This document shows, one piece after another, positions 1 through 45,416 of a stretch of DNA of 45,530 nt; position 1 is the stretch's first letter, and the number at the start of each line of letters is the position of its first letter. The notes below the pieces were generated by a model that was given only the letters and a program-made list of their open reading frames with translations, made no database searches and was not told where the DNA came from. The DNA lies in the IMG/VR virus record IMGVR_UViG_3300019776_000652, positions 1 to 45,530 of that record; one strand, given 5' to 3'. A program made the position numbers and the translations under genes. The stretch is from a virus.

Positions 1-60
1 GCTCTGTCGTATGCCGGATTCTGGCGCTCCGGCGGGCGCGTTTAGGTATGCAGTGCTCAT
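1..60 (-). CDS. 5'-partial ORF running off the left edge
   Basis: An ATG at 60 opens a minus-strand frame that has no stop before base 1, giving 20 visible residues that begin MSTAYLNAPAGAPESG. It follows the 59-codon gene by about 40 bases and keeps the direction of all its neighbours. The visible peptide is rich in Ala, Pro and Gly and matches no family I recognise. It may be the start of another small early gene or a chance open stretch. Confidence 0.35.
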   Translation of the reverse strand, partial: MSTAYLNAPAGAPESGIRQS

Positions 61-99
61 AGTGGTTATGCCCCAGAGGTCGGCTGATCCGAGACGTTC

Positions 100-279
100 T
101 CATTCCTTCGGGCGCTTCTTGGCCTTCGGAGCTTCCTTGCATCGCACCTCGCCGCGAGCGATGCGCAGGACGAGCCTACGCCACGACGGAGCACCGCTGT
201 AGATGGAAGACGTGGCAGCGGCCACTTCCGTGAGCCGCTGCCAATCGTCTTCCGGCATTTTAAGGCTTTCACGCTTCAT
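100..279 (-). CDS. Small basic protein (59 aa), unknown
   Basis: The product starts MKRESLKMPEDDWQRL and ends in a Lys/Arg-rich tail (KEAPKAKKRPKE), which suggests nucleic-acid binding, but no family is recognised. I place the start at 279 because this ATG overlaps the stop of the upstream 45-codon gene (ATGA), the same coupling seen along this cluster. The frame stays open upstream to an ATG at 531, which itself overlaps a stop. However, the intervening translation is Arg/His-rich and looks like a shadow of the 45-codon gene, so I reject the longer version. Confidence 0.55.
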   Translation of the reverse strand: MKRESLKMPEDDWQRLTEVAAATSSIYSGAPSWRRLVLRIARGEVRCKEAPKAKKRPKE

Positions 280-413
280 ATAAGGGTGATGAGCCTTTCC
301 ATGATTAGTGGGATCATGGCTTTGATGTCTCCTGGGTCGAGTTCTGCGAGAGCGTCCCAGTCGATAAGCTCCTCGATGTCGGGAGCGTAGAGTTTGGCGG
401 TTTCTTGGTCCAT
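276..413 (-). CDS. Small acidic protein (45 aa), unknown
   Basis: This 45-residue product begins MDQETAKLYAPDIEELIDW and has an acidic, helix-forming composition with a hydrophobic C-terminal third (PLIMERLITLI). Its TGA overlaps the ATG of the next gene as ATGA, which implies translational coupling. The regular amphipathic pattern and the exact overlap are the reasons for calling it. It resembles the small acidic early proteins many phages use to bind a host protein, but that role is only a guess. Confidence 0.5.
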   Translation of the reverse strand: MDQETAKLYAPDIEELIDWDALAELDPGDIKAMIPLIMERLITLI

Positions 414-427
414 GTCGTATAGTGCAA

Positions 428-441
428 AAGGTAGCTACCTT
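428..441. promoter_or_regulatory. Perfect 14-bp palindrome, operator-like
   Basis: AAGGTAGCTACCTT is a perfect 14-bp palindrome 15 bases upstream of the 45-codon gene. A consensus -35 hexamer (TTGACA, minus strand, 441-446) abuts it. A regulator dimer bound here would control the leftmost small genes. A matching -10 exists only with a 19-base spacer (416-421) and would put the transcript start inside the coding sequence, so I claim the palindrome and not a full promoter. Confidence 0.45.
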
Positions 442-527
442 GTCAAGCGGACTTTCGCACGGAATGAGAACCAGCGGCAGCAGGCGACCAGAGACCGCCG
501 CGGGAGTAGTTTGAGGATTCGAAGTCT

Positions 528-764
528 TCATACGGCGGTCTCAGTCGCCTGAGCCTTATCGTTAGCCAAGGCATTCAAGTAACCTAGGGCCATCGCCACA
601 TCCTTAGCTCTCGGAGGTGAATATGCGGTTAGTCTTTCTACCAGTTCCTTGAGGTGGTCGCGCTCATCCTCCATTCGGGCCGCGTGAGCTTCCATAATTT
701 CGAGCTGTATGCCCACTGGCAGATTTAGTTCTTGGTGATGTTTCTTGAGTTCGGTGACTTTCAT
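528..764 (-). CDS. Small helical protein (78 aa), unknown
   Basis: The product begins MKVTELKKHHQELNLPVG. Its middle is a charged helical stretch (MEDERDHLKELVERL) likely to form a short coiled coil, followed by PPRAKDVAMALGYLNAL. No family is recognised. The stop overlaps an ATG at 531. Between this gene and the next convincing start at 413 lie about 110 bases in which I find only the palindrome and the -35-like hexamer. Confidence 0.6.
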   Translation of the reverse strand: MKVTELKKHHQELNLPVGIQLEIMEAHAARMEDERDHLKELVERLTAYSPPRAKDVAMALGYLNALANDKAQATETAV

Positions 765-807
765 AAAAAGGAGATTGAGGCTAACAAGTAGATGGAGCCA
801 ACGCCCG

Positions 808-1179
808 TTACTCAGGGCGCGTATGTGGCCCGGTTCGGGCGTGGCTCATCTTGGTGTTCTGCGAAAGGAATCGGCGCGCCATGTCCCGCAGTCGGTGCGC
901 GTCGTCTTGATCGTATTCGGGCATCGTGGCGATGGCTTGAAGTCTCGCGATGATCGGCCCGACCACTTGCAGGCAGACAGCTTGCATCAGTTGCCCGTTG
1001 GGGGACTCGGGATCGAAGTCTTTCGTGTCCTCGCGTGTCTTGTAGCCGTAGAGGGGGGCAATTCCCTCGTAGCGGTCATGGAACTGGCGAGCCAACGCAG
1101 AACAAAACGCTGCTCGCGAACGAGCCTCAGCCTCTTGCTCCGCCGTGGGCTCATTGGGTTCTTGGTAGTCGTCTGGCAT
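808..1179 (-). CDS. Uncharacterised phage protein (123 aa)
   Basis: The start at 1179 gives MPDDYQEPNEPTAEQEAEAR; an in-frame extension to 1314 is Arg/Ala-rich and unlike real protein, so the shorter form is used. The core contains YGYKTREDTKDFDPES followed by PNGQLM. I recognise this as typical of a widespread but functionally unknown phage early protein, in which a Y-x-T-R-x-D-T-x-x-F-D-P-x-S-P-N-G signature is common. The C-terminus is basic. It sits among other small early genes. The function is unknown. Confidence 0.65.
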   Translation of the reverse strand: MPDDYQEPNEPTAEQEAEARSRAAFCSALARQFHDRYEGIAPLYGYKTREDTKDFDPESPNGQLMQAVCLQVVGPIIARLQAIATMPEYDQDDAHRLRDMARRFLSQNTKMSHARTGPHTRPE

Positions 1180-2069: not shown

Positions 2070-2390
2070 TTACAAAGTTTCTCCGCGTTTGATGATTTTA
2101 GTCAGGCGCTTCATTTCGGCGCTTGGCGGTGGTGATTCGGCGAGCGGCATGGACGCGCAATGATCGCACCAGCGGCACCAGCGATCTACGTTTTTACCAC
2201 CTCCATAACCCCATTCGGTGTTGCTCCATTCGTGGCCTGTGATTTTTGCGCACAGCCACTTTTTGAGTCGATCCACCCATCTAATGCGTTTGGTCCAGTG
2301 CGGCCAGCAATACCAAAGTTGAGGATACTCAATGCGATCGGTGCGGTGATTTTTGGGGTGTAGTCGGGCGATGTGTTCGAAAATTTTCAT
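2070..2390 (-). CDS. Trp/Cys-rich small phage protein (106 aa)
   Basis: The product starts MKIFEHIARLHPKNHRTD. It carries the block LCAKITGHEWSNTEW, followed by GYGGGKNVDRWCRWCDHC, a Cys-plus-C-x2-C arrangement typical of small prophage zinc proteins of the DUF1660 kind. The match to that family is by eye and tentative. Tryptophan content is unusually high. The start overlaps the stop of the upstream gene (ATGA). Confidence 0.65.
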   Translation of the reverse strand: MKIFEHIARLHPKNHRTDRIEYPQLWYCWPHWTKRIRWVDRLKKWLCAKITGHEWSNTEWGYGGGKNVDRWCRWCDHCASMPLAESPPPSAEMKRLTKIIKRGETL

Positions 2391-2848
2391 GGCTTAAATT
2401 TTGGATGGTTGAGGATTTCGGCAATGTTGCCAATCCACTGGCAAGTTGCGCTGTGTTTTTGAGTTGCGACGGCACAGCGCCGCGTCGTTTGGTGGTAAGT
2501 AGCATGGCCGTCTGTTTGTTGACTGGAGTTTTGTCGGCAGAGGGGTGCATGGTGATTAAAATCGGATTGGGTGGATGCGCCAAGCGTTATCAACCACGGG
2601 TGCCAGTAGCTCCGAGGTGCTAGCCAGTTCTTTGCATAGACCACATAGCGAGCGAGCCTGAAACGGTCGATGACGAGATGTGTCAGCCAGATCACGAGCC
2701 ACGCATTCACGGACGCAATCGCGAGGAATGGTAGCGCATAGACGGTAGCGTGGCAGAAAGCTGCCCAGCTGGACTTGGTTTTGTTCTGCGCCATCCAGTC
2801 TGACTGGGTGACGTAATCGCCGACGAGGTGAAGGATGAGTTGAATCAT
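2387..2848 (-). CDS. DUF3307-like membrane protein with atypical C-terminus (153 aa)
   Basis: Residues 1-85 fit phage DUF3307 proteins: MIQLILHLVGDYVTQSDWMA, then a hydrophobic segment (YALPFLAIASVNAWLVIWL), then HLVIDRFRLARYVVYAKN. After about residue 90 the usual C-terminal transmembrane helix (a W-L-x-x-W-L-L-I-I-x-D-N-T pattern) is absent in every frame, and a polar Cys/His-containing tail follows instead, ending WIGNIAEILNHPKFKP. The stop overlaps the next ATG. A gene-junction element sits inside this ORF at 2551, so the 3' part may be a separate or frameshifted gene. Function of the family is unknown; membrane location is inferred. Confidence 0.6.
   Translation of the reverse strand: MIQLILHLVGDYVTQSDWMAQNKTKSSWAAFCHATVYALPFLAIASVNAWLVIWLTHLVIDRFRLARYVVYAKNWLAPRSYWHPWLITLGASTQSDFNHHAPLCRQNSSQQTDGHATYHQTTRRCAVATQKHSATCQWIGNIAEILNHPKFKP
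2551..2558 (-). promoter_or_regulatory. Junction element TAATCACC inside the DUF3307 ORF
   Basis: An exact TAATCACC followed directly by ATG (2550) lies within the 153-codon ORF. The ATG opens a frame, MHPSADKTPVNKQTAML, that runs to 2329. A stop in a third frame coincides with the TAA. All three frames are plausible here. Confidence 0.4.
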
Positions 2849-2991
2849 TGTGTGATCTTCTTGAGTTCTTCGCGGTAGATTTCAGCCGTGGCATTGGCCG
2901 CGTTGCCAATGAAAGGATAGAGCTTCTCAAAGTCAGCGATGGCTGATTCGATGATCTCGATTGCTTGCTTGAGTTTGTCTTCGGGTGTCAT
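2845..2991 (-). CDS. Small helical protein (48 aa), unknown
   Basis: The 48-residue product starts MTPEDKLKQAIEIIESAIAD and is almost entirely amphipathic helix, ending REELKKITQ. Both ends use the ATGA overlap, with the 177-codon gene upstream and the DUF3307-like gene downstream, so it is a link in a coupled chain. It could be a small helical-bundle regulator. No family is recognised. Confidence 0.6.
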   Translation of the reverse strand: MTPEDKLKQAIEIIESAIADFEKLYPFIGNAANATAEIYREELKKITQ

Positions 2992-3521
2992 GGGTAAAAT
3001 CGGGCAGAACTAGGCGCTGGTGCAAGCTCGTGCCTCGCTGGCACAGCTTGGACGTTCTGCCTACTTGGTGGCGCGGCAGTCCAGCCGTATTCGGTCCATT
3101 GCGTCTGTGCGGCGAAAAGCACTTCGCTTACAGTCTCGAAGCCATATTTCGCCACAGCGTTTCTCAAATGCTTGAGCCGCGTTCCGGCAAGTTCTTGCGA
3201 ATGCCATCCGCTGCAAATGCGGATTACGAACGCCGTTCCTGTGAGTCTGATCACATAGGTTCCTCTATTGCTGTCATCGGCATCATCTGGCGGCGCGATC
3301 CATTCCAGAGTTATCATGTCGCCACCCTTGGTGTTCCAAGCCGTGACCGCTGCCCTTGCTTCCTCTTCGTCCTCAAACTCGCCAGCGAAGTGTTTGTTTT
3401 TGTCGTGAGCAATCCAGCGTTTGGGATTCAGATAGTCACCGGCAGCCATGCACGTAAACGAGGCAGAACCAGCGCATGCAGGCAACGGCTCGAAGGTAGT
3501 CTGTTGTGTATTCATAGTCAT
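2988..3521 (-). CDS. Uncharacterised early protein (177 aa), duplicated N-terminus
   Basis: The first residues, MTMNTQQTTFEPLPACAGS, are identical to those of the upstream 95-residue protein because both starts lie in an exact 80-bp direct repeat. After residue 19 the two diverge. This one continues with FTCMAAGDYLNPKRWIA and an acidic helix (FEDEEEARAAVTAW) typical of small phage proteins that handle an environmental or host signal, but no family is assigned. The start could also be the second ATG at 3515. The stop overlaps the next gene by ATGA. Confidence 0.6.
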   Translation of the reverse strand: MTMNTQQTTFEPLPACAGSASFTCMAAGDYLNPKRWIAHDKNKHFAGEFEDEEEARAAVTAWNTKGGDMITLEWIAPPDDADDSNRGTYVIRLTGTAFVIRICSGWHSQELAGTRLKHLRNAVAKYGFETVSEVLFAAQTQWTEYGWTAAPPSRQNVQAVPARHELAPAPSSARFYP

Positions 3522-3548
3522 TTGCTCGCCGTCGCCTGATGCTGGTCG
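3469..3548. repeat. 80-bp direct repeat, copy 1
   Basis: Bases 3469-3548 are identical to 3753-3832. The repeat covers the last codons of one gene, the ATGA junction, and the first 19 codons of the next. Short matches interrupted by single mismatches extend it slightly on both sides. Confidence 0.9.
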
Positions 3549-3805
3549 TTCTGGCAATCCATCGGCGGCAGTTGTTGCGCGTCCATCATGCCTTGGATGT
3601 AGGCGGACATGCACAGGTCGTCGATGCTCACGCTGCCCAGCCTATGCCAGTAGTAGCGAGCCAGCGGGCCGATGCGTTGTTTGACGACCCGCGCGTGTGC
3701 TGGATCGACGCCATAGTGCAGCAATCGGTCGCTGCGAGGTTTGCGGCCAGAGCCAGCGCATGCAGGCAACGGCTCGAAGGTAGTCTGTTGTGTATTCATA
3801 GTCAT
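3518..3805 (-). CDS. Uncharacterised early protein (95 aa), duplicated N-terminus
   Basis: The product begins with the same 19 residues as the 177-residue protein downstream, then diverges at RKPRSDRLLHYGVD. The remainder is basic with an aromatic block (IGPLARYYWHRLGS), then a helix (DDLCMSAYIQGMMD). The last residues, DQHQATASK, are encoded by the other end of the 80-bp repeat. A relic of the same peptide can be read upstream of this gene's own start. It is the first gene after the glycosyltransferase fusion. Function unknown. Confidence 0.6.
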   Translation of the reverse strand: MTMNTQQTTFEPLPACAGSGRKPRSDRLLHYGVDPAHARVVKQRIGPLARYYWHRLGSVSIDDLCMSAYIQGMMDAQQLPPMDCQNDQHQATASK

Positions 3806-3832
3806 TTGCTCGCCGTCGCCTGATGCTGGTCG
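3753..3832. repeat. 80-bp direct repeat, copy 2
   Basis: This is the second exact copy of the 80-bp unit at 3469-3548, 284 bp away start to start. The interval between the copies is filled by the 95-codon gene. Confidence 0.9.
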
Positions 3833-3864
3833 CTCTGAACGGAATCGGAAAGGTTGCCTCGCGT

Positions 3865-5820
3865 TTATTTGGAGCTCGAGGCTTTCGCTGCTTTGGCTTT
3901 AAACTCGGCAGAAATCGCAGCGAGGTGGTCGCTGTGCTCTTTGGCGGTGGCTTTGCGCTCGCCGTCGGCAGAGCAGGGACGTTCGCCCTGAATCCGCCGC
4001 TGCATCACCGTCATCCCCCGCGGCGTCGGCAGGTGAATCACCTGAAACCCGCTGGCGTAGAGCTGGGCCAGCAATTCCGTCTCGCCTCGGCAGGGATGCA
4101 GGGGGGAGGTGTCGTGGACCACCACGACGGCGTGCGGGCTCAGGTGCGGAGTGAGCAGGGCCAGCTCCTCGGCGCGCAGCTCGATGTGGGTGTCCAGCAG
4201 GGCAAAGTCGATCTTGGGCGGGTCGGGAAATAGAACCAGCCCACCCAGATACTCCAGCGAGCTTTGGACACTCACCGTCACCCGCTTCTCCACCCCCCAT
4301 TTTTGCAGGTTCGCCCGTGCTTCGGCAGCGCTGGCGGGATCGGTCTCCAGGGTGATCAGCTTGCCGTGCTTGTTTTGCTCCAAAGCCAGGGCGATGTGCG
4401 CGGCTGTGAAGCCGGTTTCCGTCCCCGTTTCCAGGCACTGAGCAGGCTTCAGCGCCACCACGAGGCCATAGAGACACAGTGCCTCCTCCACGGTGGCTGC
4501 ACCTTTGCCCCAGTCGCCCTGGTGATACTCGCCGGCACGAGGTAGCTCGGGGTGGACGTCGCCAAGCTTGATGCCGCCAAAGAAGGATTGCAGGCCAAAC
4601 TGGAAGGCGGGCAGATCGGCGGTTTTTTCTACCTTGCCGCGCAGCATCGCCACCACCTCGCGGGCGATCCGTTCCGGCGTGATCTTCGCCATCGCCACGC
4701 AATACCCGGCGGCATTGCAGGGGGCGGGCGTCTCTGTGCCGGGCATGTAGCGCGGCCAAGGGCCCGCACGCCCTTTGTAATGGCAGGGGGCGCAGGGGGC
4801 ATGGCCGGTGAGCCAGCGCATGTTCTTCGGCTGTTCGCCGGCATGAATCACCCGCTGCTTGCCGGAGTAAGCGGCGAAGAGTCCCAGCGTGGGCAGTCCG
4901 AGCGCGCCCGCAGCGTGCATGAGCCCGCTGTCCGGGCCGATCACCACGTCCATGGTCGCCAGCAGGGCTAGGGTCTCCGCCAGCGGGGGCGGCACGGGCT
5001 CGTTGCCGGTGATCACCACGCGCGGGTGATCCACCTCCACGCGGCCGCCATGGGCAAAGATGAAGATCCGGGCCGTGGGGATGCGCTGCATGATCAGGTC
5101 CATGGCTTGGTTCAGAAGCTCCACAGGGTAGTCGCGACACTTCGCACTGCTCTGGAGCTGCACACCCACGCGCACCTCGCCATCCACGATCTTCGGCCAC
5201 TTCGCCCAGGCTTCATCCACCTGGAGAGGAGGGATGAGCAGTTGCGGGTGAGGTGGCAGCACCGTCAAAGCGCCGTCTTTTTCAGCATAAATATCAATCG
5301 TCAGCCCCAGCGCCTCGGTGAAGATGGTCACGGCGTCCTGCTCGTCATTGCGCTCGATCTTGTCCTCCAGCGGGATGATGACCTCAAACTCTTCCGCCAC
5401 CTCCGCCAGCACGGGCGCGGCGATTTTTTGCAGCCTTTCCAGCCCCGGCGCGCTGAGCACGGGGAAATACTCTTCATGGCAGGCAAAGGTGAACTCGATC
5501 TGCGGATACGTCGCCAGCAGATGCACCAGAGCCGGCAGGCAGAAGAGAATGTCACCGATGCCGCCCTGGCGGATGATCAGGACGCGGAAGGGCAAATCCC
5601 TGGCGTTCACATTCTCCAAAATCTTGGGAAGCGGCCAATCGGTTTCCACCGCTTTATACTGGAGTTGAACCGGGATAGGCACAAATGCTTCATCATCCGC
5701 CAGCACATCGTGGATGCCGAGCTGGTGGAAGTTCAGTTCATCGAAGAGGTAGCGTTGACCGGCTTGGAGATGAGGCCAGAGGGAGAGGCCAGCGGTGTGG
5801 GTGAGGGTGGCAAAGCGCAT
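3865..5820 (-). CDS. GT9 glycosyltransferase - class I methyltransferase fusion (651 aa)
   Basis: Residues about 78-395 look like an ADP-heptose:LPS heptosyltransferase (GT9, GT-B fold): an N-terminal GGIGD motif (LIIRQGGIGDILFCLPAL, 81-98) and the donor-site signature VVIGPDSGLMHAAGALGLP (292-310). Cysteines at 343, 346, 368 and 374 may bind a metal. Residues about 440-600 look like a class I SAM-dependent methyltransferase, with CLETGTETGFTAAHIALAL (462-480) as the SAM-binding loop and an acidic strand end (LITLETDP). The tail is basic and Ala/Ser-rich. I start at 5820 (MRFATLTHTAG) because the in-frame extension to 5898 is low-complexity. A role in altering host surface sugars, or a virion glycan, is inferred from family. 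Confidence 0.8.
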   Translation of the reverse strand: MRFATLTHTAGLSLWPHLQAGQRYLFDELNFHQLGIHDVLADDEAFVPIPVQLQYKAVETDWPLPKILENVNARDLPFRVLIIRQGGIGDILFCLPALVHLLATYPQIEFTFACHEEYFPVLSAPGLERLQKIAAPVLAEVAEEFEVIIPLEDKIERNDEQDAVTIFTEALGLTIDIYAEKDGALTVLPPHPQLLIPPLQVDEAWAKWPKIVDGEVRVGVQLQSSAKCRDYPVELLNQAMDLIMQRIPTARIFIFAHGGRVEVDHPRVVITGNEPVPPPLAETLALLATMDVVIGPDSGLMHAAGALGLPTLGLFAAYSGKQRVIHAGEQPKNMRWLTGHAPCAPCHYKGRAGPWPRYMPGTETPAPCNAAGYCVAMAKITPERIAREVVAMLRGKVEKTADLPAFQFGLQSFFGGIKLGDVHPELPRAGEYHQGDWGKGAATVEEALCLYGLVVALKPAQCLETGTETGFTAAHIALALEQNKHGKLITLETDPASAAEARANLQKWGVEKRVTVSVQSSLEYLGGLVLFPDPPKIDFALLDTHIELRAEELALLTPHLSPHAVVVVHDTSPLHPCRGETELLAQLYASGFQVIHLPTPRGMTVMQRRIQGERPCSADGERKATAKEHSDHLAAISAEFKAKAAKASSSK

Positions 5821-5860
5821 GGGATTTGTAACAGGAGATTTGGAGAATGGGAGATGGTGA

Positions 5861-6049
5861 TCACTGGCGCTTGAAGGCGAAGCGGTCACCGGCGGCATAG
5901 CGTGCGCGGCGGGCTTTGCGGGCTTTGCGCTGGTTGCGGGTGGGACTGCCCAGGAAAGGGCGGTTCAGCACGCCAAAGTTCAGCGTGGGCATGAAACCGG
6001 AGGCGGCGGCAGCCGCTCCGAGGGCAATGAGGGTGGATGGGGATTTCAT
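5861..6049 (-). CDS. Small protein with hydrophobic N-terminus and basic tail (62 aa)
   Basis: The N-terminus MKSPSTLIALGAAAAASGF resembles a signal or membrane-insertion segment. The C-terminal half is strongly basic (NQRKARKARRARYAAGDRF). The architecture suggests a small membrane-associated or nucleic-acid-binding virion protein, but no family is recognised. The stop is followed by a variant of the junction element (TGATCACC). Confidence 0.5.
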   Translation of the reverse strand: MKSPSTLIALGAAAAASGFMPTLNFGVLNRPFLGSPTRNQRKARKARRARYAAGDRFAFKRQ

Positions 6050-7456: not shown

Positions 7457-10400
7457 TCAGATCACCCCCTGCCCACGCCACAGCGCGGAGATGTCCCGCA
7501 AGATCCACGGCTTCTGCTCGGCTCCGATCACGCGAAACTTCACGGCAATGGCGCTGTCGGTGAGCATCAAATCCGCGCGATGATCGGCGCGTGGCACGTC
7601 GCCCACATCGCCATAGGTGAAGGTCACTTCATCGCCGCCAAGTCCGATCAAGGTCGCCTCCACAAACCCGCGCGAGTTCCGCACGGTGCGGAAGATCAGC
7701 GCCTGAAAGGACTTCCGCCGCTCGGGGCTGCCCATGTCGAAGTAACCCGTCTGGATGATGGTGTCACTGGCCTGATAAAAGCGGCTGGCGGTGCCGTCGC
7801 CATCGTGGTCGTAGTCCACATACCCGTAGCCGCGATACTGCACCGGGATGGGGTCCGTGGTGCTGTGTGGGGTGAAAGCATCGACCGCAGGAAAAGCATT
7901 GCCGCTATCATTCTGCTCGGCGGTGTCCCAGACAAAGAGGTTGCCCGCTTCATCAGCAAACACGAGCTCCGGCCTGCTGCTCTCCATGCGGGCAAGATCG
8001 AACACCTTGGGAAAATCAAACTCACCCGTCAGCCCATCGCGCAGGAAGTCGTAGGCGAAGCCCTTCAGGGTGCCGTCCGTGGCAGGCAGGTAAAACCAGA
8101 GCATCTTGGCGCTGGTATCGCTGAAAAGGTAAGCCCGATGGGGATTGCGCCCCAGTTCGGTCAGGTCCACCCGATCCCGCAGATACTGCTGCGTGGCATC
8201 ATCCACGCTGCTGGCCTGGAGCTTGGTGTAAAGATTGTCATCTGCTTGGCGGTTGATGCGTAAATCACTGCCAAGGTAAAAAAGTTGGTTCTTCTCCCAG
8301 GTCGCCACACAGTTGCCATTCTGTGCGCCAGCCAGCACGGGCGGGTCGCTTTGGTCCGTGGGGTCCGTGTTCGGCTGGTTCAGGATCTTGATGCCGCCAG
8401 CGGTGTGGATGTGCAGCTTCGTGCCATCGGTGTGCTGAGCGGTGATGTTCTGGCTGCCGGGGTCGGTGTCATTGAGCTGCACCTCCTCGTAGCTGTCCAC
8501 GTTTGCGCCCTCGGGCACGAGCTCGTCATCCGCCGCATTCTTGCTGATCTGGAGCCTCGTGGGATAGCCGGTGGTGCCGCCGCGCCAGAGCTTGGTGCCG
8601 ACAAGGGTATGGTAAAGGTGCGGCAGCGGTCGATTCTGATCTGCGGACATGCTGCCGCCTTCGGCAGCGCTGAGGATGGGCGTGTTCGTGCCGATCTGGA
8701 TCGTCTTGAAACTTTGCTGGAAACCCTGCGCACCACTGCCTGCCGTGGTGAGATTGATCGCCGCTCCGCCCAAAGTCAGCGCCAGTTTCGTGCGCCAGGT
8801 GTCCGTGCTCACACAAAAGTAATCCGTCCCTGTCGCCAGCGGAGAGGGCAGACTGCCCGTGGTGGTCACGCGCGTCACATCGCCCGTGCGCAGCAGATGC
8901 GGCGTGGCGACATGGAGGGTATGCGTGCCCGTGCCGAGCGTGGTGATATTGATAGCGGTGCCGCCGGCGGTCAGGCTCACCTTGATAAATTGCTGCGTGC
9001 TCTGCGCCGCACTCACTACGTAATACGGCACTGCTGGCGAAAGACCACCCGGCAGCGTGCCCGTGGTGGTAAACATGACCACCTGCCCCACGGCGGTGGT
9101 GTTGTTCGGGATGAAAATAAGGTCTGTCGAGGCCTGGGCCACCGCTCCCACACTGGCGCTCACGCTCAGCAGGTAGTCCGTGCCGGTGTCCACCTTGAAA
9201 TTTGCGCTGCTGAGTTCATTCGGCACCGGGTTGTCAGGGTCCACCAGCAGATAATCCTCCTCCGGGCTCTCACCCACCTGGAGATAGATGCGGATGAAGG
9301 GGAATCGACCGCCCTCGGCGTCCGGGTTCACCGGCACACGCACCACGAGGTCGTTGTTGGCATCGGCGGTGATGATCACCTCGTTGCTGGCATCGCTGCT
9401 GATGCCTTCATATCCCAGATTGTCCTGCCCTGGGTCCCAGTAGCGGGTGTAAACCTTGCGTGTCGAGTTCGTGAAGCCATCGCTCGTGCCCGTGCCTGTG
9501 CCGCCGCTGAGATCCGTGGGGCCGTAGCTGCCGGTGTCTGCCGTGGCATCGCTACTGGCCGTGCTAGCGCTCAGGATGCTCAGCACGCGGCTGTCCGTGT
9601 TCACATAGCTGACGATGGCGTTGTTGCTGCTATGCACCGCCGCCGTGCCGGTATTCAGCGTGTAGTAATACGGGCTGCTCGTGGTGCCATCGCCGGCCAG
9701 ACTGCTCACCAGGGCGGCCGCACCGGGCACGATGCGCACGCGGATCTTGCCATTGCCGGCAGCGCCGGGGAAGTTCGTGCTGTCGGCGGTGAAGGTCAGC
9801 ACCACGCCACCCGTTCTGCCAGCCACCGGCCAGGAGGCCTGGGCATTCGTGCTGCTGGCGGGCTGGGTCAAAGAGATGCTCGGCGTGCCAGGCTTGGCAT
9901 TGCTGCCCGCCTTGCGCCACTTGCCCGGCGTGGCCGTGCGCGCGAGCTGCACGATCACGTTGTCATCCACCCCATTGCCCAGCAGCACCTCGGTAAAGGC
10001 GCGGGTGCCATACCACCGAGCATCTGCATCTAGCCCCACGGCCAGAACCTCAAAAGTGGGCGTGTCGGCGGTGAAGTCATAATCCCCCGAGGTGAAGCTG
10101 TCGTCATCGCCCAGGTAAAACAAACCTTTGCAGGCCTGAAGCTCCGGTGCGGTGAGGCTGTAGAAAAGCAGAAAGTTCTTCCCCTGCTGCTTCACCAGGA
10201 TGGCGCAGGTCTTGTTTGCCGTGCGGGCCGCGCTGTCTACGCCGATCCCCGAGGCATACCCTGTGAAAGGCAGGGCGCGATACGTCGCCTGCACGGTCTC
10301 CGTGCTGCCGATGGCCCACAGCCGATCATACTTCGGCGGACCCTTGCAGCCCCCTGGTGGCCGCAGCATGAGATTCCGCGCCTCCAGCAGCGACATCCCC

Positions 10401-10474
10401 GCATCCGTCCCCTCCTGGAGCGATGTCACTGCTCCAAGCTGCCGCAGGGGAAAGACGTTGGGAGGTCGGGGCAT
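7457..10474 (-). CDS. Large tail nozzle / stabilisation-like protein (1005 aa)
   Basis: This product resembles the podovirus tail nozzle or hub proteins (T7 gp12 and P22 gp10 type). Its N-terminus (MPRPPNVFPLRQLGAVTSLQ) and ARNLMLRPPGG match the way such proteins open. The C-terminal third has FYLGSDLRINRQADDNLYT, KMLWFYLPATDGTLKGFAYD, and the DMGSPERRKSFQALIFR block. The central part is Gly/Ser/Thr-rich beta sequence with repeats that include several near-identical TTTGSLPSP-type strands. I start at 10474 because that ATG directly follows the junction element TAATCACC; an ATG seven codons earlier is the alternative. The function in the tail is inferred from the pattern and from the adjacent adaptor gene. 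Confidence 0.7.
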   Translation of the reverse strand: MPRPPNVFPLRQLGAVTSLQEGTDAGMSLLEARNLMLRPPGGCKGPPKYDRLWAIGSTETVQATYRALPFTGYASGIGVDSAARTANKTCAILVKQQGKNFLLFYSLTAPELQACKGLFYLGDDDSFTSGDYDFTADTPTFEVLAVGLDADARWYGTRAFTEVLLGNGVDDNVIVQLARTATPGKWRKAGSNAKPGTPSISLTQPASSTNAQASWPVAGRTGGVVLTFTADSTNFPGAAGNGKIRVRIVPGAAALVSSLAGDGTTSSPYYYTLNTGTAAVHSSNNAIVSYVNTDSRVLSILSASTASSDATADTGSYGPTDLSGGTGTGTSDGFTNSTRKVYTRYWDPGQDNLGYEGISSDASNEVIITADANNDLVVRVPVNPDAEGGRFPFIRIYLQVGESPEEDYLLVDPDNPVPNELSSANFKVDTGTDYLLSVSASVGAVAQASTDLIFIPNNTTAVGQVVMFTTTGTLPGGLSPAVPYYVVSAAQSTQQFIKVSLTAGGTAINITTLGTGTHTLHVATPHLLRTGDVTRVTTTGSLPSPLATGTDYFCVSTDTWRTKLALTLGGAAINLTTAGSGAQGFQQSFKTIQIGTNTPILSAAEGGSMSADQNRPLPHLYHTLVGTKLWRGGTTGYPTRLQISKNAADDELVPEGANVDSYEEVQLNDTDPGSQNITAQHTDGTKLHIHTAGGIKILNQPNTDPTDQSDPPVLAGAQNGNCVATWEKNQLFYLGSDLRINRQADDNLYTKLQASSVDDATQQYLRDRVDLTELGRNPHRAYLFSDTSAKMLWFYLPATDGTLKGFAYDFLRDGLTGEFDFPKVFDLARMESSRPELVFADEAGNLFVWDTAEQNDSGNAFPAVDAFTPHSTTDPIPVQYRGYGYVDYDHDGDGTASRFYQASDTIIQTGYFDMGSPERRKSFQALIFRTVRNSRGFVEATLIGLGGDEVTFTYGDVGDVPRADHRADLMLTDSAIAVKFRVIGAEQKPWILRDISALWRGQGVI

Positions 10475-10482
10475 GGTGATTA
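10475..10482 (-). promoter_or_regulatory. Junction element TAATCACC before the nozzle gene
   Basis: The element touches the ATG at 10474. Its TAA is also the stop codon of the 18-codon ORF upstream. Confidence 0.5.
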
Positions 10483-10536
10483 CTGGTGGAGACAACCATT
10501 GTCATGGCAGCGCGTGATGTCGTGAAGTAACTGCAT
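10480..10536 (-). CDS. Possible 18-codon microprotein ORF
   Basis: The ATG at 10536 directly follows a near-copy of the junction element (TAATCCCC, 10537-10544), and the ORF's TAA begins an exact copy. The peptide is MQLLHDITRCHDNGCLHQ, with two cysteines and three histidines. It may be a leader peptide that couples exonuclease and nozzle translation, or a chance frame. The placement between two elements is the only evidence. Confidence 0.3.
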   Translation of the reverse strand: MQLLHDITRCHDNGCLHQ

Positions 10537-10541
10537 GGGGA

Positions 10542-11102
10542 TTAGTCGGAGGTGAAGGATCGCAGCCACAAATACCCGTGGAGAGTGGCAAGGGAATCTT
10601 GCAGGGCGTTATGCTCCGCATCGCGGGAGCAATTCCATCCGCTCAATTCAATCAACCGATCCAGCGAAGATGAACCTTTGGGCAGCCGTGCATCGTCCAT
10701 GAGTTCGCCGAATTTGACCTGACTGCAACGCCAGTCCCCTCGGTATGGAAACTCGGCCAATGTCACACGTTCTGCCTCCATAAAAAAACTGCGATCAAAC
10801 GCCAGATTGTGACAGACAATTTTAGCCTCGGGCTTTTCCTCTTTCCGAGCTTTGAGCCAAGCCAGAAACTCCTGAACCACTGTATCAATATCTCGGGCAC
10901 CTAAATCGGCCCATTTTTCACGAGAATAGCCATTTTTTACAGCAGCTTCGGCGCACACAGTTTTCCCAAATTGGGACGCTTCGGTAATGTAAGCCAGATA
11001 AGATTCTCCAGACCAACTACAGCATGCTCCGATGGAAAGCAGGGCATGGGTAGTGGGGTAAATACCCCCAGTCTCTGTATCTGTGACAATGTAATCCGGC
11101 AT
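10542..11102 (-). CDS. DEDDh 3'-5' exonuclease (186 aa)
   Basis: All three exonuclease motifs of the DnaQ/RNase T superfamily are visible: Exo I TDTETGG (D8, E10), Exo II CHNLAFDRSF (D103) and Exo III EHNALQDSLAT (H164, D169), which places it in the DEDDh group. It would remove nucleotides from 3' ends using two metal ions. It lies between the head-tail adaptor and the nozzle-like gene, an odd place for a nuclease in a structural operon, and no polymerase is encoded nearby. It might process genome ends or degrade host DNA or RNA. Confidence 0.85.
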   Translation of the reverse strand: MPDYIVTDTETGGIYPTTHALLSIGACCSWSGESYLAYITEASQFGKTVCAEAAVKNGYSREKWADLGARDIDTVVQEFLAWLKARKEEKPEAKIVCHNLAFDRSFFMEAERVTLAEFPYRGDWRCSQVKFGELMDDARLPKGSSSLDRLIELSGWNCSRDAEHNALQDSLATLHGYLWLRSFTSD

Positions 11103-23962: not shown

Positions 23963-23970
23963 GGTGATTA
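23963..23970 (-). promoter_or_regulatory. Junction element TAATCACC between the giant gene and portal
   Basis: The TAA is the stop of the 5605-codon gene; CACAACCCTTTC follows to the portal ATG, with no Shine-Dalgarno sequence. Confidence 0.5.
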
Positions 23971-26900
23971 TTCCTTGGCCTTCGCCTGCTGTCTCCTGAT
24001 TTCTGCCAGGATGCCGGGCGCTTTGGCCTGCGACTTCTTGAACTCGGTCTGGCGGGTGTTGAACACGCGCTTGGCCTCGGGGCTGAAGCTGGCGATCAGG
24101 CGGGCGCGAAACTCCTTCTTGATCAGCTTGGTGGGGTCCAGGCTGTCGAGCAGATCGGTCATCTGCTTGGCGGTCTTCACAGGGTTGCCGCTGGCTTCGA
24201 GCCGGGCCATGGCTTCGGCGATCTTGTCCAGATCAGGTTCATCCTGGATCAGTTCGCCCTTGATGTCGGCAGCCAGGCGCGACTTCAGCGGCGTGGTGTA
24301 GGTGTTGCTGTTGCCCACTACCGGCAAGTTGTTCTTTTGCCGGAAAAAGGCGGTCTCCTTGCGCAGATCCGGGTCCGCGCTGCGCACGTCCATCCCCAAA
24401 AGAGCGCGAATCCAGGACTGATACTTGTTCCTCATGTCGAGGCTGTTGGTTCTCCGGCCTGCATTGCTTAGGGTGGCGGCATGGACGCCTACGCCAGGGG
24501 TCAAGGGTGGCAAGATGTCACCGGCCAGGTTCTTCAGTCGCTCGCCCGCGCTCTCGATCACGCCCATGTCATCCTGCACGATCTTCCGCCCAGTGAAGGC
24601 ATCGGTGTTTGTGCTGGCACTCCACGCGGCCGCCAGCAAAGGACTCGAGGTAAAGCGTGCGCGCCACCATTTGGTGAACTCGTCCTCATCCTCCATCATC
24701 TCCACTCGCGTGCCGATCAAATCCGCAAAGGGCATGACGCTGGAAAGGTCCCACTGCTGAAGCTGACCCTCGCTTGTGCGCATCGGCAGCAACATGGAAA
24801 ACACTGGCGCATCCACCACGCCACCGACCAGCTTGCCACGCATGGCGCGGAAGACCGCTTCCTCATCGTCATCCCCCAGGCCAAGGGCCATGAGGCTGTA
24901 GCGGGTCACTGCCGAGGCAAAGAGCATGACGGCACTCAGCGCCATCGGGCGCTCCATGGCCGCCCGGCCCATGATGCGTGTGCTCTCGCGGAAGAAACTG
25001 CCAAAGGGATTCAGGAACCTGCCGCTCACCTTCCAGTAGGCGCTCGTGCCCAGCCTGTCATAATACGGGAACCACTTCCGCACCTCGGCAGCGGCTTCGC
25101 GTGGATCCATGCCCTGCGCCCGGTATTTGTTAAAGGCGGCCGTCTTGTAAAAGTCATCCGGCAGACTGCGCAAGGCGCTGAGGTATTCATAGGTGCCGCG
25201 GGCTCCTGCTCCCAGTCCCATGACCATGCGCATGAGCGCGCCGGCGTCGGCGTTCTCCACGGTCTTCTGATCGGGCAGCAGTCCGCGCAGAGCGGTCTTC
25301 ACCTGCGTGGTGTAGGCATCCCCGCCCAGCACCTGCATCTCAATCAGCTCGGCAAACTTCGGCCCTCCATCGCGCAGGATGGCGATGGCATCGCGATAAT
25401 ACGGCCAGTTCCCAGGGTTCCAGAGGCTGTTCCCGCCCAGGTAGGCAAAGGCGGTATTGCCCACGGCATCGCGGATGTGTGAGCCGGGATTCAGCACCAG
25501 CTTGCCGCCTTTCCACTTCCGCAGCATGGAGTCGTAGAACTTCATTGCCGCGCCGTCCACGTTCACGACATCGAGCACCTGCGTGGCGATGTCATCCCGC
25601 ACCCAGCGCCCCGACAAAGGCCCAAAGCGTGGGTTCTCGGGAATCTCGGTGTAGCCTGGAGGCGGCGCTTCTTTGGCGTTGCCGACCTTTTTTGGCGGCT
25701 CAATCGTCCATGCCTTCACCTTAGCCGTCTCCTTCATCAGCTCCATGGTGGCCGCGTTGTGGGTCTGCGCCATCACATAGCGAGCCACGGCATACACGGG
25801 ATCTTTGATCAGCTTGTCCGGCTCGAAAGGCTTCTCTTTCTTGTAGCGCACCCGCTGCAGTTCAATGGCGCGACGCACGATGTTGCGCATCGGCTCGGTC
25901 ATCTGGGCGGGCAGGTCAATGCTCGCGCGAGTCAGGCCGGCGATCTCCTCGCGGATGCTCTTCTTGTCATCGATCTTCAGCGCGGCCAGCAGGTTCGTCA
26001 CGTTTGACCCCTGCTCTTGCAGGAAGCGCACCGCCTCCGAGCGGATGAAGTCCTCATAGAATCCATCCCGCTGCCGCTCATCGCGGAACCTCCAGCGATT
26101 CCGCTTGGCTCCCTCGGTGCGGTTCACGGTGACGTATTGGCCCGTGGCATCTTTTTTGGTGGTGTCCACGATGTGCCAGGCCGTCGAGCGCTGTTGTTTC
26201 AGGTCTTTGACCCCCAGCTTGAAGGCCTTCAGCCACGAGCCCGCCGCTTCGCCGGCCTCGTCTTCGGTGAAGCGCGGCATCCAGCCGGTATCCCGCAGTT
26301 CCTCGAAAGTGTCCAGGTTCATGAGTTCCTGTTTCACCAGTTCGCGCCCGGTCGTTTCCAGCATCCCGCGCAAGCGGGCCGCCAGTTCCTGGAGCGGTTT
26401 CGGCAGCGAAGTCATCGGCACCTTGCCCTCCATGGCATCAAACATCTGCACCCGGTAAGCCGGGTTCTCCACGAACTCCTTGGGGTAAGCCAGATCGCTG
26501 ACCTTGGCCGAGTGCGAGAGCGCTCGCACCACGTCCATAGCCTTCTCACGACCCCAGGCGGATTTGCGCTGGCTTTCGTGCATCATCGCCAGCCACTCAC
26601 GCGGCACGCTCCACAGCGGCAGCGCATTGTCAGCGATGGCCTTACCCACGCCATTCAGCGCGCCCGGTTTTTGCAGCCAGGCTTTCACCGCCTCCTTGCC
26701 CGTGCGCGCCCGTGCCCACAGCCACTTGTTCGTCCAGTTCTCATACACCCACTTGTCCAAGCGATTCGATCCCAGCCAAGCCAGCGGCTTCTGCACCCCC
26801 GTCTTCTCCACCGCCGCACTGCCCATCTTCGCAGCGGTCGATGCCGTCCACACCGGCAGCGTCACAAACATGGCATTGCCTGTTTTGGCGATGATCTCGC

Positions 26901-29900
26901 CCACCTTGTCGAGCGAATCCGCCGTGGTTTCTGGGTCCGTGCCGCGTTGGGCGCGGGTGTAGAGGATGCTGTCTGACTCATGATTGAAGCGCTGGCTGAG
27001 CGGGATCACCTTGCCCGACTCGTCACGAGTCACGGGATCGGCGGATTTGATTTGTGATGGCAACATTGCCAAAAACACCGCATCCTCTTTAACTTGCCCG
27101 TCTTCGACTAGCGTCTCTTTTTGTTTCAGTAATCCAATCCCAGACTGATAAAATGCTGAAGGTGATTTCTGCTGAATCTGACGGGTCCAGCGCCAAACGG
27201 GAGCTTTGCTTTCTCCTGTCACATCCAGCATAGACTGCATGTATTCAACACTACGAATCAAGGTTTCATACAATGGCCCGACCTGCTTTTGAAGCTCATC
27301 AAGATATTGTTTTCCTGTGATGGGGTCAGTTCCAAAGCGCGTAAGATCGGCGGTCTTACCTGGCTTTAGTTTAACTCTCATGGTTGGCTCAACACCATCT
27401 TTTGCACGACGAAACCAGTCAGCGTATTCTTGGGTGGTGCTAAAGTAGGAAGGAGTGGCAAAGCGCGTAAAGCTGGTTCGAGCGCCATGATGGGCATCAA
27501 TATCATACCCCGCGGCCTTCGCCGCCTCATCCACCATGCGCTGAGCCTTCACCATGTCCCCAGCCTCCACAGCGGCCAGATACTCGGCATCCATCGCCCG
27601 GCTTCCCAGCAATCCATGCGCCTCCCGGTAGTTCGCTTCACTGCCGCTGGTCTGCTTGTGACCGATCACTGTCTGGCCGTCGCCTTCCAGCCAGTCGGCC
27701 ACCTTTTGCCGCTCGGCCTCGGTCACGGAGGCTAGCCTGCCCCAATAGACCGTTTGAGTCTCGGGGTTGAATCGGAAATCCTTGGCCCCGTCCTCATGGC
27801 TGGCGCTGGCGATCTCACGCAGGTCACCATGCCGGGCTTTTTCCAGGTCAGGCACTTTGACCGCGATCACCTCGCCATCCGCCACGGTGCCAAGGTAGCC
27901 CTTGCCCCCTCGCATCGCCCGCGCTGCCAGCACCTTGTCGCCCTCCCGCACCGGACCCGGCACGGTGAACACCTGATCCTTGATCACCTGAAACTCCGCC
28001 TGGGTGTGGCTGGTCAGCTTGTCCAGTCCCTGCCAGCCTTTGGCGTAGTTGCGCAGGTAGGCGGCACGAGCTTCCTCAGCGGTCGGATAGCCCAGCATGA
28101 CCTTGTATTCATCGAACTGTTTTGGTGGGTCCGAGGTTTCGGGTTTCAGGTTTAAAGTTTCAAGTTTCCCCGATCCAGTCTTGGAACTTGAAACTTGAGA
28201 CTTAGAACTCCCTACCTTCACCTGCCTGATCACATGCACCGGCCCGCTGTAGTCCGCCGGCGTGCCTGCTTTCACAAACACGTCCACATGATCCCCGTCC
28301 TTGGCGTTCGTGCCTTTGAAGTAGCCGTAATGGTCCTGCATCGTGACCGACCACGCCTTGCCGCTCGGGTCCGTGCCCTTGCGCTCACTGCCCGCCGGGT
28401 TCTCAATGCTGATCTCATGCCCAGAGATGCGCACATGACCTAGCTTGTAATTGCCCGCCTCCTTCTGCGCCTGCGTCGGCTCCGGCAGCGGATTGTTCGG
28501 CGATGTCGCCGCCTCATGCGCGGCTTGATCCACGGGGGCCGTGCTCGTGGCAGAGGTGTCGGCGGGACGCATGGCGCGTGATCCCAGCATCTGCTGCTGC
28601 AAATTCTCCCGCAGCTTGCCCTGCGGCTGCATCACGATCACGTCAAAGGGCACCAAGTCTGGCCCCGTGGCACTGTCCACCCACATCACGTTGTAAAGGT
28701 GCGCGTCAAAGACGGCGGTGTTGTCGCTGGCACGGTAAAAGGTGCTCGGATTCACGCGCGAAGGAGCAAAGCCATACTCAGCCATGGCCTTTGCAATGGC
28801 CCGCTGCTGGCGCTCGCGTTCCACATCCTGCTCCTCCTCGGGGGTATCGTCCACAAGACTGCCGGGCAGTTCGCCATCATAGGCGGGCTGGCTGGTCAGC
28901 AGTTGCACTTGCCCCTGGCGATTCACCAGCACGCCATGCAGCACCCAGTCATCGCCAAAAACCTGGTTTGCCATCTCCAGCCGCTCTAGATAGCGCAGCG
29001 GACTCGATGCCGCAGCGCGCATGTCCAAGCCGATGTTTTGCGCCACGGGATACAGCCCATACTGGCCCGGCTTGGTCAGCTTCACCACCCGCCGCTTGTC
29101 TGACGTGCGCCAGACACTGTGCTCCATCTGCCCAAAATCGCGGTCACTGCCTGGCTGGTAATCTGCCGGCAGTTGGGTGATCAGGAGCCCGTTGTCCCGC
29201 GCCCAGTTGGCGAGGATCGCGGCTTGGATTCGGATGTCGCTTGGGTTGAGAGTTTCCGACGCCCGGCTTGGCGCTCCCATTTCTCGTCGGAGATCCCGTG
29301 CCGCGAGGCGTGCAAAACTTCGGGCATCGTTTCGGGAGTGACGAGTCGCGGTTTCTTTTCCATAGAGGGATTCAAAGATACCACGGATGGCAGCACTTTG
29401 CACCTCGTTTGTTGCCGGGTTTCCGCGCATTGCGCGTGATCCCAGCACCTGCGCCCCATACCCCGCCACAAAGGCATCCCGCACCGCCGCACTCGGGAAC
29501 TGGAAGCCGGGAATGGCTCCGCTGCCCTTAAACGCGCTGTAATACCCGCCGGCAGACTTCGCCCGGCTCAGCTCGCTGCGGTATTCCGTGTCACTCAGAC
29601 GGCGATCCATCTTTGCCACATAGGTCATCGTGCCCTTCTTCGCGTGCAGCGTCTCCGCTACGCTGTAGGGGCTGCCGCTGGCAGGTGAAGCGGGCACTCC
29701 TGCCCGCTGGGAGCTTTCTGAGTCCAGCTTTTGGTAGGCCTGATCAATCTTAGCCACCGCTTTAGCCATGGCGTCTGAATCGGCCTCTTGAGTCTTTGGA
29801 TCATCCGCTTCCACTTTCTCCGTCGCTACATCCCGCACGATCCTCCCAGGCGGGCTCAGGTCTTCGAGCTGGTCAAACAGCTCGCCAATCGTCTCCGCGC

Positions 29901-32900
29901 TGAGTTCCCGCGGGCTGCGCTGTTGCAGATCCACCTCACCCTGGAAGCCGATGAAGTCATTCATGTGCTTCGCCATCGCACGCAGCGTGGCCTCATCGCC
30001 CTGGCGGGAAATGCGTTTGGTGCCAAAGCTGTCGTAGGCGGTCCACGAGTATTCCCCCTCCTTGCGAATCTCCCAAAGGTCCGCCTTGTCCAGCACCACG
30101 ATCCGCGTCTTCACGCTGGTGCCTGCCCGCTCAAACGTCACCGTCGGCAGGCCATAGCTGGCGCGCAGGTGCATGTCCTTACCCTCGCCCTCGTAAAGCC
30201 ACTGCTCAAAGCGCTTCTCCATCGCAGATCCCTCGGGGATCAGCGCCACAAGCCTGCCACCCTGGCGCAGGTGCTTCGCGGCCTTCGCCACATGCTCCAT
30301 CGCCATCTTGCCCGCCGTGCCAAAGGGTGGATTCATCGCCACGCCGTCGAATTTGTTCACGATGTGCAGATCCTCGAAGGGCATGACCTCCACCTTGCCA
30401 GCCGCCACCTTGATGCGCAGCTCATCGCTCAGGCCTCGGCTTGGCTCCACATACTTGTTCGTCGTGAACTCAGGGAAGAAGCGACCAATCGCCCCATGCC
30501 CCGCGCTCGGCTCCAGCAGGTCCATGCCTGCCTTGGCATCCAGGAAGCGCACCATCGTCAGCCCCACGGGCTCCGGCGTGGCAAAATAGTCGATGCCCTC
30601 TGCAGCCTTGGTCTTGCTGGTTTTTTTCTGCCTGCCGAAGTAATACGACTTCGCCCGATCCATGTCAGACCCAAGCAGCTCGGCGGTGTCCTGCTTCTTG
30701 CCGCCCAGCCCCTGCTCAGCGCTTGGGGCCTCGCCATGCGCGTTCAGGTAGCCCGATTTGAAGCTATCCTTCAGCGTGCGCGCCATCTTGCCCAGGGCCA
30801 TGTTTTCCACCGTGCCCGTGCGCTCGCTGATCTTGCTGCCAAAGGCACTGCGCTCCATGGCGGTGTGCAGCACCAGATACTCCTGGATGGCGTTCGACTT
30901 CACGCCGATACGGTAGATGCGTCCCTCGCTCTGGATGGCATCCGTGGGCTTCACGGGGAGCGCGGCATTCATCAGCACGCGCTGCCGGCCGTTGCCCGTC
31001 ACGTCATGCAGGGAGATGCCTTCTTTCCCGGCCTCCATCTGGATCATGATCACGTCCACGCCGCTGTCGTCGGCATTGAAGGCTTTCACCCCGGCCATGC
31101 GCTCTTTGGGCGATACCTCACCATTGAAGAACCGCGCCCGATCTCCAAACTCATCCGCCACCAGCGAGCGAGGATTAAACAAGCGCTTGAAGTCCATGCC
31201 TACGAGGTCCGGGTGCAGATCCCGCCACTCTCGAGCCAGCTTCGATGCCTCAGCCGTCGGCAAAGGCAGGTAGTTCAGCGTGAAGGGATGCACCGGGTCG
31301 GCGTTGTTGTAGCTGTGAAACAGCACGATCTTCCGCCCCATGTCGAGGTGCTGGTTCATGCGCTCCAGCGCGCCGGCCACCTTGATGCTTTCCAAGAGCT
31401 GCATCCGCTTCGAGTAACCGCCACTGGTGCCATACCAGTAATTTCTGAAGGCACGGCGAAGCGGCTCCCAGTAAGTGCCTTGTTCGCGACTCTCCCCGCG
31501 CGGGCCCCAGGCCAGATCTTGGAAACCTTCATCGAGCTGCTTGCCCAGTTGGGAGTCCAGCAGGATGAACTCGCGGCTGTAGTCATACGGCACATCGATC
31601 ATGCGGCCACTCATGGACCCGTTCTGGAACTGCCTCTCCGACCACTCACGCTCCATCAGCCCCACATCCACCTCGGGCGGTGGACTGGTGAGCCGATTCG
31701 TCTTCATGCTGTAGCCAAAATTCTCCACGAGGTAACGGTCCATGCCCTGCGGCACGTTGTAGCCCGTGCTCTCAGAGCGAGGGCTCGCAAAAAGGTAGCC
31801 GTCGGCATAGCCCAGGCTCTTGTGGTAGTTGAACGGCGTGGCGCTCAGGAACACGGCTTTCGTGTCCGGGAAAGTCTTCCGCTTGGCTTCGATCTCGGCC
31901 GCCTTGGCTTCCCGGCGCTCGTTGTAGGCCTGCATGGCCTCGCGATCTTCCGGGTTTGGTGCGGCACCGATCACTGCATACTCCGCTTTCTGCTGCGCGT
32001 AGAAGCCGGGCTTGTTCGTGGCGCGATAGTGCGCGCTCATGTTCTCCGTCTGCGTGCCCTGCGCATTGCCGCCCAGGTAGTGGCTTTCGTCATAGACGAT
32101 CAGATCCCAGGGCTCGGCTTGCAGTGCGGCATTCGCGCGGAAGTTGGCATAGGTCGTCACCACCACGCCACTGCCGACATCGGTCGTGTTGTTCAGCGGT
32201 GAGGCCTTCACCATCACGCGCAGGCCTTCGTTCTGCCAGTCCGTGACTTTTGGCTGGCTCGGCACCACGATCAGCACGCGACCCCGCCCCATCATCTCGA
32301 AGCGCTTAATGATACCCAACCCCGTAAACGTCTTGCCCGTGCCGGTGCCGTTGGTGAAGAGCATCCCCTTCTTCGGGTCGTCCTTCGTCGGCTCCTGGTT
32401 GAACCATCGATCTTCCGTCTTCTTCACGTCGTCATGCTGCTGCGGCAGCAGGATGGGCAGGGTCTTGGCAATGTTCTCGCGGTCCCCCGGCACGATGTCA
32501 TCCCAACCCTCCGCCGTGTTTTGCACGGTGGCCTGCTCAATCAGGCGCTGGGATGGAGTGCTTGCGCGATCTTGAGCCACCTCATCTGCGGCTGGCCGCT
32601 CTGGAGCAGTGCCAAAAAGATCGAGCTCTGCGCCGGACTCCACTGCCGCTCTCGGCTCATCAATGCCGCTGCTTCCTCCGGGCTCAGCACTTCCGGCAGG
32701 GCTGCCAGAAACTCGGGATGCCTCTCCTTGAACGCGCTCAGCGCCTGCTGCTCCTCCAGCAGGGGCATCACCTCTTGCAGGGGCACGATCATTTCCTTCG
32801 GCGTCTTCGCCCGCGTTTCCGCCTGCGCCCACAGCGTCAGCATCTGCTCTAAAGAGTCCGGTGCCAGCCGAAACGCCAGCTTCCCGGCCTCCGACTGCGG

Positions 32901-45262: not shown

Positions 45263-45359
45263 ACAAGCGCAAGCGGAAATATGAAAATCTTTTTCGGGAG
45301 TCAAAACGGGCCGGAACAAGCCGCTGCTCGCAACGTGCAGGGCGGCAGTGTCCCATGTG

Positions 45360-45416
45360 CTAGCGCTGCTCGCTCTCGCCCTGCCCGTGCGAGAGCTTAT
45401 CGTTCTGATGATTCAT
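45360..45416 (-). CDS. Possible 18-codon ORF
   Basis: ATG at 45416 overlaps the stop of the truncated gene upstream (ATGA) and encodes MNHQNDKLSHGQGESEQR. It is polar and has no recognised family. Coupled overlap is the sole support. Confidence 0.25.
   Translation of the reverse strand: MNHQNDKLSHGQGESEQR

Follow-up and report, generated by a model that had tools for sequence, protein, structure and literature searches.

The two copies of a repeat found in a viral contig (IMG/VR record IMGVR_UViG_3300019776_000652, whose full 45,530 nucleotides are called the window below) are very probably attC copies in a phage cassette array, in which each cassette would consist of an attC and a small gene, with the genes lying on the bottom strand, i.e., the one that folds, and an integrase cutting at AA^C. 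In the sequences compared here, the copies belong to a dispersed family of hairpins with covariation in their stems, the boundaries of the cassettes fall at AAC triplets, and an integron integrase gene stands beside members of the family.

The repeat pair and its hairpin family

The copies, e1 (3464-3553) and e2 (3748-3837), both on the minus strand, have 90 nt each, are 98% identical, and lie 284 bp apart from start to start. The exact 80-bp repeat reported in the first-pass annotation is their core (3469-3548 and 3753-3832), so that the full extent of the copies had been slightly understated, and a 29-nt stretch of the repeat, present twice in the window, had a mean count of 0 over 100 shuffles. 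Both copies encode, on the minus strand, the same 19 residues, MTMNTQQTTFEPLPACAGS, which open an ORF of 177 aa (2988-3521, minus strand) that starts inside e1, and one of 95 aa (3518-3805, minus strand) that starts inside e2 and ends inside e1. The annotation was also right that two adjacent proteins share these residues and are unlike beyond the repeat, given that BLAST aligns only their first 20 residues. The repeated unit was described there as a gene end, an ATGA junction, and the next N-terminus; in e1, the ATGA at 3518-3521 is the overlap of the end of the 95-aa gene with the start of the 177-aa ORF, and e2 lies directly after a 677-aa ORF and has no upstream ORF ending inside it. This 677-aa ORF (3865-5898, minus strand), directly upstream of the array, joins glycosyltransferase-9-like and methyltransferase domains. 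No relatives were found at useful E-values for the 95-aa protein in viral contigs, genomes, phages, Pfam, and PHROGs, or for the 177-aa protein in viral contigs, phages, Pfam, and PHROGs; a likeness of the latter to Lar zinc fingers was dropped, as no family match was obtained.

Both copies are imperfect palindromes, flanked by the inverted repeats CAGAAC..GTTCTG in e1 and CAGAGC..GCTCTG in e2, and their only two mismatches fall on opposite sides of a single base pair, changed from A-T to G-C, so that the palindrome is kept. On the gene (minus) strand, these outer R-boxes are followed by a mostly unpaired spacer and then by an inner stem with about 15 pairs, whose 3' arm has a single extrahelical C; the loop, about 38 nt long, contains ATGA and a start codon, which in e1 is the junction with the start of the 177-aa ORF and in e2 the start of the 95-aa ORF. 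The fold z-scores of e1 and e2 are -4.65 and -5.08 as RNA, and -2.56 and -2.30 as DNA. No part of the window matched Rfam at the gathering threshold, and the surroundings of the elements gave no credible match.

Elements of the same kind are dispersed over other contigs, one of which carries a copy with 94.5% identity over 73 bp. A first pattern, built from the arms of e1 and e2 and scanned over IMG/VR, returned 18 contigs with eight clear members, the other ten being set aside as chance matches, with none at E below 1 in the covariance model R1. A second pattern returned 12 contigs, all with members (12/12), and five bacterial matches, one of which, from a 27-kb contig in a Flavobacteriaceae MAG bin, is a member, while the remaining four were set aside as chance. 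In total, the pattern scans found members in 15 other contigs, 14 viral and one from a MAG. The MAG contig L083 (JAIXYI010000019.1), which has two elements and a weak match to a terminase small subunit, is probably a phage contig in a MAG bin; an integron-integrase-like gene (237.6 bits, under the cut-off) lies on another contig of this MAG.

The model R1 was trained on ten members and recovered 32 from 17 sources at E<=0.001, including the ten of the training alignment; among the latter, e1 scores 111.1 bits and e2 107.5 bits. In the alignment of the 32 members, 96.5% of the cells are paired, changes on both sides are found in 14 of the 17 pairs, with none of 500 shuffles coming near, and the cells with both-sided changes number 69 against 14.6 expected, counts which, given related members and an alignment fitted to the model, lean towards the model and are not probabilities; the gap is very large. 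When the partner was slid by one to three columns as a control, the covariation signal collapsed every time. In several of the contigs, elements alternate with small ORFs in rows, for example in L045, with four, and in L106, with four in a row and three more.

The window has other sites. The diverged third member, e3 (461-566, minus strand), spans the ATGA at which a 78-aa and a 143-aa ORF meet, and its similarity to e1 and e2 alone is weak (a score of 45, matched in 4 of 30 simulated genomes), so that its membership rests on the R1 match (70.7 bits, as part of the training set) and on a cassette in common with the viral contig L043. A shorter attC-like site (3003-3061, minus strand) sits within the 3' end of the 177-aa ORF, with a perfect 8-bp R-box, GGCAGAAC/GTTCTGCC, a DNA fold z of -3.95, and no R1 match. 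Another (CAGAAC..GTTAGCC; 778-863, minus strand) lies between the 168-aa and 78-aa ORFs, with a z of -4.67 and no R1 match, and in both of these sites the next ATG is just past the hairpin, outside the loop. At the other end of the contig, a probable site, CAGAACGATAAGC..GGCTTGTTC (about 45307-45409, minus strand), has a weak R1 score (14.8 bits, E 0.14) and a z of -3.17. A possible further site, GAGAACGTCTCGG (1-101, minus strand), is cut by the contig end, and no complete hairpin was seen there or on joining the contig ends. A search for circularity of the genome found neither a clear hairpin over the joined ends nor a direct repeat of at least 9 bases at the termini.

A free AAC/GTT fold scan of the window gave at least 44 matches on the minus strand and at least 39 on the plus strand, and does not discriminate by itself, which is why only sites with further support are listed. 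The stretch 1101-1231 was rejected as an attC-like site (fold z +0.27), and places at 12.8, 34.2, and 44.2 kb resemble the repeat no more than expected by chance. A DUF3307/phrog_6676 gene of 153 aa (2387-2848, minus strand) lies in the same stretch as the cassettes. Four relatives of the window, found through the terminase, have the structural genes in common and lack this region, and two of the four have one weak element. Elsewhere in this 45.5-kb phage contig, a single ORF of 5605 codons occupies 23968-40785 on the minus strand, and an ORF of 2419 aa is found in a comparable phage setting, the contig G032.

Cassette boundaries and the integron integrase

In homologous cassettes from unrelated contigs, the similarity ends at the AAC that opens each hairpin. 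For example, the viral contigs L042 (5084-5399) and L051 (2894-3209), from different metagenomes, have 316 bp in common at 99.7% identity, running from TAAAG to CAGAACG between unrelated flanks, a case of recent transfer. The window and L043 have about 485 bp in common, from AACG up to GAGAAC, i.e., the cassette formed by e3 and its body (79-563, minus strand; 81.6% identity), in which AAC triplets mark both ends of the similarity; a shifted TTGGC shortly upstream is probably due to chance. The block of 198 bp common to L045 and L083 also ends at GAGAAC, and its gene is presumably HTH-like. In L051, L042, and L080, a common body ending in TTTCACAGAAC has three different continuations, while L038 and L078, two contigs with one phage backbone, differ in their last cassettes and rejoin at CGAAC. 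Finally, L079 and L080 have the element alone in common (125 bp, from AACG to GTTC), with both flanks different, and as this pair, like e1 and e2, shares the element and not the bodies, breakpoints also occur at the 3' GTT end.

The shared blocks are made up of an element and the body that follows it, and run up to the AAC with which the next element opens, and no pair made up of a body and the element that follows it, ending at GTT, was found among the comparisons made. In five cassette comparisons, the boundary agrees, within about 2 nt, with the AA^C / G^TT cassette boundary of attC sites. Coding on the gene strand is supported by the substitutions between L051 and L080, 17 of 21 of which are at third codon positions, and this bias is weak between L045 and L083 (10, 10, and 13).

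These comparisons bear out the earlier suggestion of recombination, or of a fixed start module joined to different bodies. A DNA methyltransferase body, with 75% identity over 227 residues, follows different start modules in L043 (5593 onward) and L106 (8334 onward). The further suggestion that the shared N-terminus is a targeting or expression tag is not supported, given that what is conserved is the DNA/RNA palindrome, and the N-termini of the elements of L050, of the window at 461-566, and of L043 are read in another frame, a difference among members that makes a targeting signal unlikely.

The profiles PF00589 and TIGR02249 were each run against 13 records, and the two sets of records partly overlap. 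None of the 13 exceeded the PF00589 cut-off, the window included, and TIGR02249 was over its cut-off in two, G031 and G032 (L075/L076, from the same phage), and negative in the 45.5 kb of the window. Given that no integrase was found in it, the window would be an integrase-less cluster, which agrees with the definition of a CALIN (two or more attC and no integrase), with three R1 members and three weaker sites whose R-boxes depart from the consensus. The integrase of G031 and G032 scores 352 bits with TIGR02249 (cut-off 265), its closest solved structure is IntI4 (E 8e-64), and each of the two contigs holds seven members of the family. In G032, which also encodes major head, virion structural, and DnaB helicase genes, an element and an ORF (8334-9196) lie upstream of intI (9718-10752), in the same direction. 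The parts of a complete integron (intI, attI, and cassettes) were not found together in the window and are present in part in G031 and G032, where the attI is putative. A 420-aa frame in the contig that holds L051 (G029:C1:1184-1405) reaches 23.4 bits with PF00589, under the cut-off.

attC features and the polarity of the cassettes

The attC features were scored in 35 elements, i.e., the 32 R1 members and the window sites at 778-863, 3003-3061, and 45307-45407. Their architecture is that of an attC, an imperfect palindrome with an outer R-box, an unpaired spacer, an inner stem, and a variable loop. AAC opens 30 of the 35 and GTT is found in 31 (by a pattern reading, with two misreads corrected by eye), and the base after AAC on the gene strand is G in 30, which are not the same 30. 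The exceptions with paired changes, e2 (AGC/GCT) and L079 (CAC/GTG), may be dead sites. The full consensus RYYYAAC / GTTRRRY is absent, as G precedes AAC in 28 of the 35 and GTTC is found in 27, and this departure makes the elements variant, rather than typical, attC sites.

In an ordinary cassette, the gene is on the top strand of the attC and precedes it, and the bottom strand has its extrahelical bases on the 3' arm. In the minimum-energy folds of the elements, whose members are not independent, the bulges are more numerous on the 3' arm in 25 of the 35, on the 5' arm in two, and equal in eight, which agrees with the arm expected of a bottom strand. The 3'-arm rule was checked on the phage Rctr41k, in which the bottom strand of two long attC-like hairpins is on the minus strand and every listed CDS on the plus strand, i.e., the usual polarity. 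According to PMC2727003, the choice of strand is set by the extrahelical bases, the recombination point is in the R' box, and the base after its AAC is G in most sites.

Taken together, the bulge side, the AAC-G box, the cassette boundaries, and the position of the integrase suggest that the genes of these arrays are on the attC bottom strand, in which case one gene would end in the site and the next would take its start codon and N-terminus from it. It is the gene that appears to be turned, because the shared blocks consist of an element and the following body, and because the cassette genes of G032 point to the downstream integrase. The flipped polarity, taken by itself, is probable. In a soft test, ORF starts were found in 27 of the 32 elements on the gene strand versus 15 of the 32 on the other strand.

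An array of ordinary polarity, with each gene followed by its attC and the start codon in the loop as a by-product of the dense packing of phage genes, is rather unlikely. It would explain why e1/e2 and L079/L080 share the element and not the downstream body, like similar attC of different cassettes, and why small ORFs end inside the element in 26 of the 32 members; however, the blocks shared between contigs extend from an element through the following body up to the next AAC, with no pair of a body and its following element, and the bulge side, the AAC-G, and the integrase position point the opposite way. A palindromic start-associated or REP-like phage regulatory element, unrelated to integrons and copied by homologous recombination, is improbable, given that, while the members do lie at gene junctions, most of them with a start codon inside, and the mRNA would fold into the same hairpin, it does not account for AAC-exact cassette boundaries across unrelated contigs, for an unpaired spacer, an extrahelical base, and AAC-G as in attC, or for an integron integrase in a contig with seven members. 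A simple recent tandem duplication or an assembly artefact, which the 98% identity and the 284-bp spacing might evoke, is highly improbable for a repeat that is palindromic with a paired change and has members in the 14 viral contigs and the MAG contig, the copy with 94.5% identity over 73 bp speaking in particular against an artefact. The e1/e2 repeat is therefore best read as a recombination site rather than an accidental duplication.

Relation to known integrons and biological meaning

Integrons and CALINs in phages have already been published (Qi et al. 2023, PMC9892861), and that study describes phage genomes with attC arrays made up of small genes, some of the arrays without an integrase, much like those found here, and reports that five of the six phage sites tested recombined with IntI1. 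Those sites differ in their box, G|TTRRRY, and in that their bottom strands recombined best, and the available text of the study describes no start codon inside an attC and no array with bottom-strand genes. The reverse integrons of Treponema (PMC7691350, PMC4909258) resemble the surroundings of the G032 integrase in having integrase and cassette genes in the same direction, but there the integrase itself is turned and the ddl cassette, downstream of intI with its stop codon in R'', has the ordinary polarity, whereas G032 has its array upstream of intI, and there it is the cassette genes that appear turned, so that G032 is not a reverse integron of the Treponema type.

Rctr41k (KX853513.1, with its integrase annotated as xerD) resembles a phage integron: its IntI-like integrase is 38.7% identical to that of G032, and it has attC-like hairpins (L108 8414-8546 and 9304-9435), but the boxes of these two long hairpins are of, or near to, the TAAC/GTTA type, and their polarity is the usual one. 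ORF-11 in attI1, where, according to PMC8876359, a translation restart at the cassette junction aids cassettes that have no ribosome site, is similar in principle, although this helper serves the first cassette from within attI1, whereas the junctions of the window are within the attC sites. Arrays with genes on the attC bottom strand and a start codon in the site were not found in the literature searched, which lay mostly outside subscription papers and preprints. The flipped cassettes with a start codon inside the attC would be what sets these arrays apart from the known phage integrons, CALINs, and reverse integrons.

In the favored reading, that of attC copies in an array of turned cassettes, the unit that moves would be an attC with its small gene, and the strand that carries the gene would also be the one that folds into the recombining hairpin, i.e., the attC bottom strand, opposite to that of ordinary cassettes. 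An integron integrase from a phage with similar sites would cut at AA^C and move cassettes between phages, and with a cut at this point each cassette would carry its own start codon and N-terminus, while the last residues of each protein (NDKAQATAS.., NDQHQATA..) would come from the site of the next cassette and translation could restart at the ATGA or at a close stop-start junction. We infer from the comparisons that the sites recombine, that their polarity is functionally flipped, and that they have a role in translation.

The broader proposal, towards which we lean slightly, is that of a phage integron lineage with turned cassettes, in which the recombinogenic strand is the coding strand and the site encodes the end of one protein together with the next start codon and its first 15-20 residues, yielding a translationally coupled operon in whatever order the cassettes are joined. 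The R-boxes, of the form GAAC/GTTC, would have shifted along with the lineage's own phage integrase; this enzyme would act in trans for phages that lack one and allow the exchange of accessory genes, including DNA methyltransferases.

If this is true, such arrays would be a gene-shuffling platform fitted to compact phage genomes, in which each join doubles as a translation start, and they would account for the N-termini shared among small, unrelated phage genes. Searches for attC that are tuned to bacterial R-boxes may overlook these phage arrays, and the exchange of cassettes among environmental phages would become directly testable.
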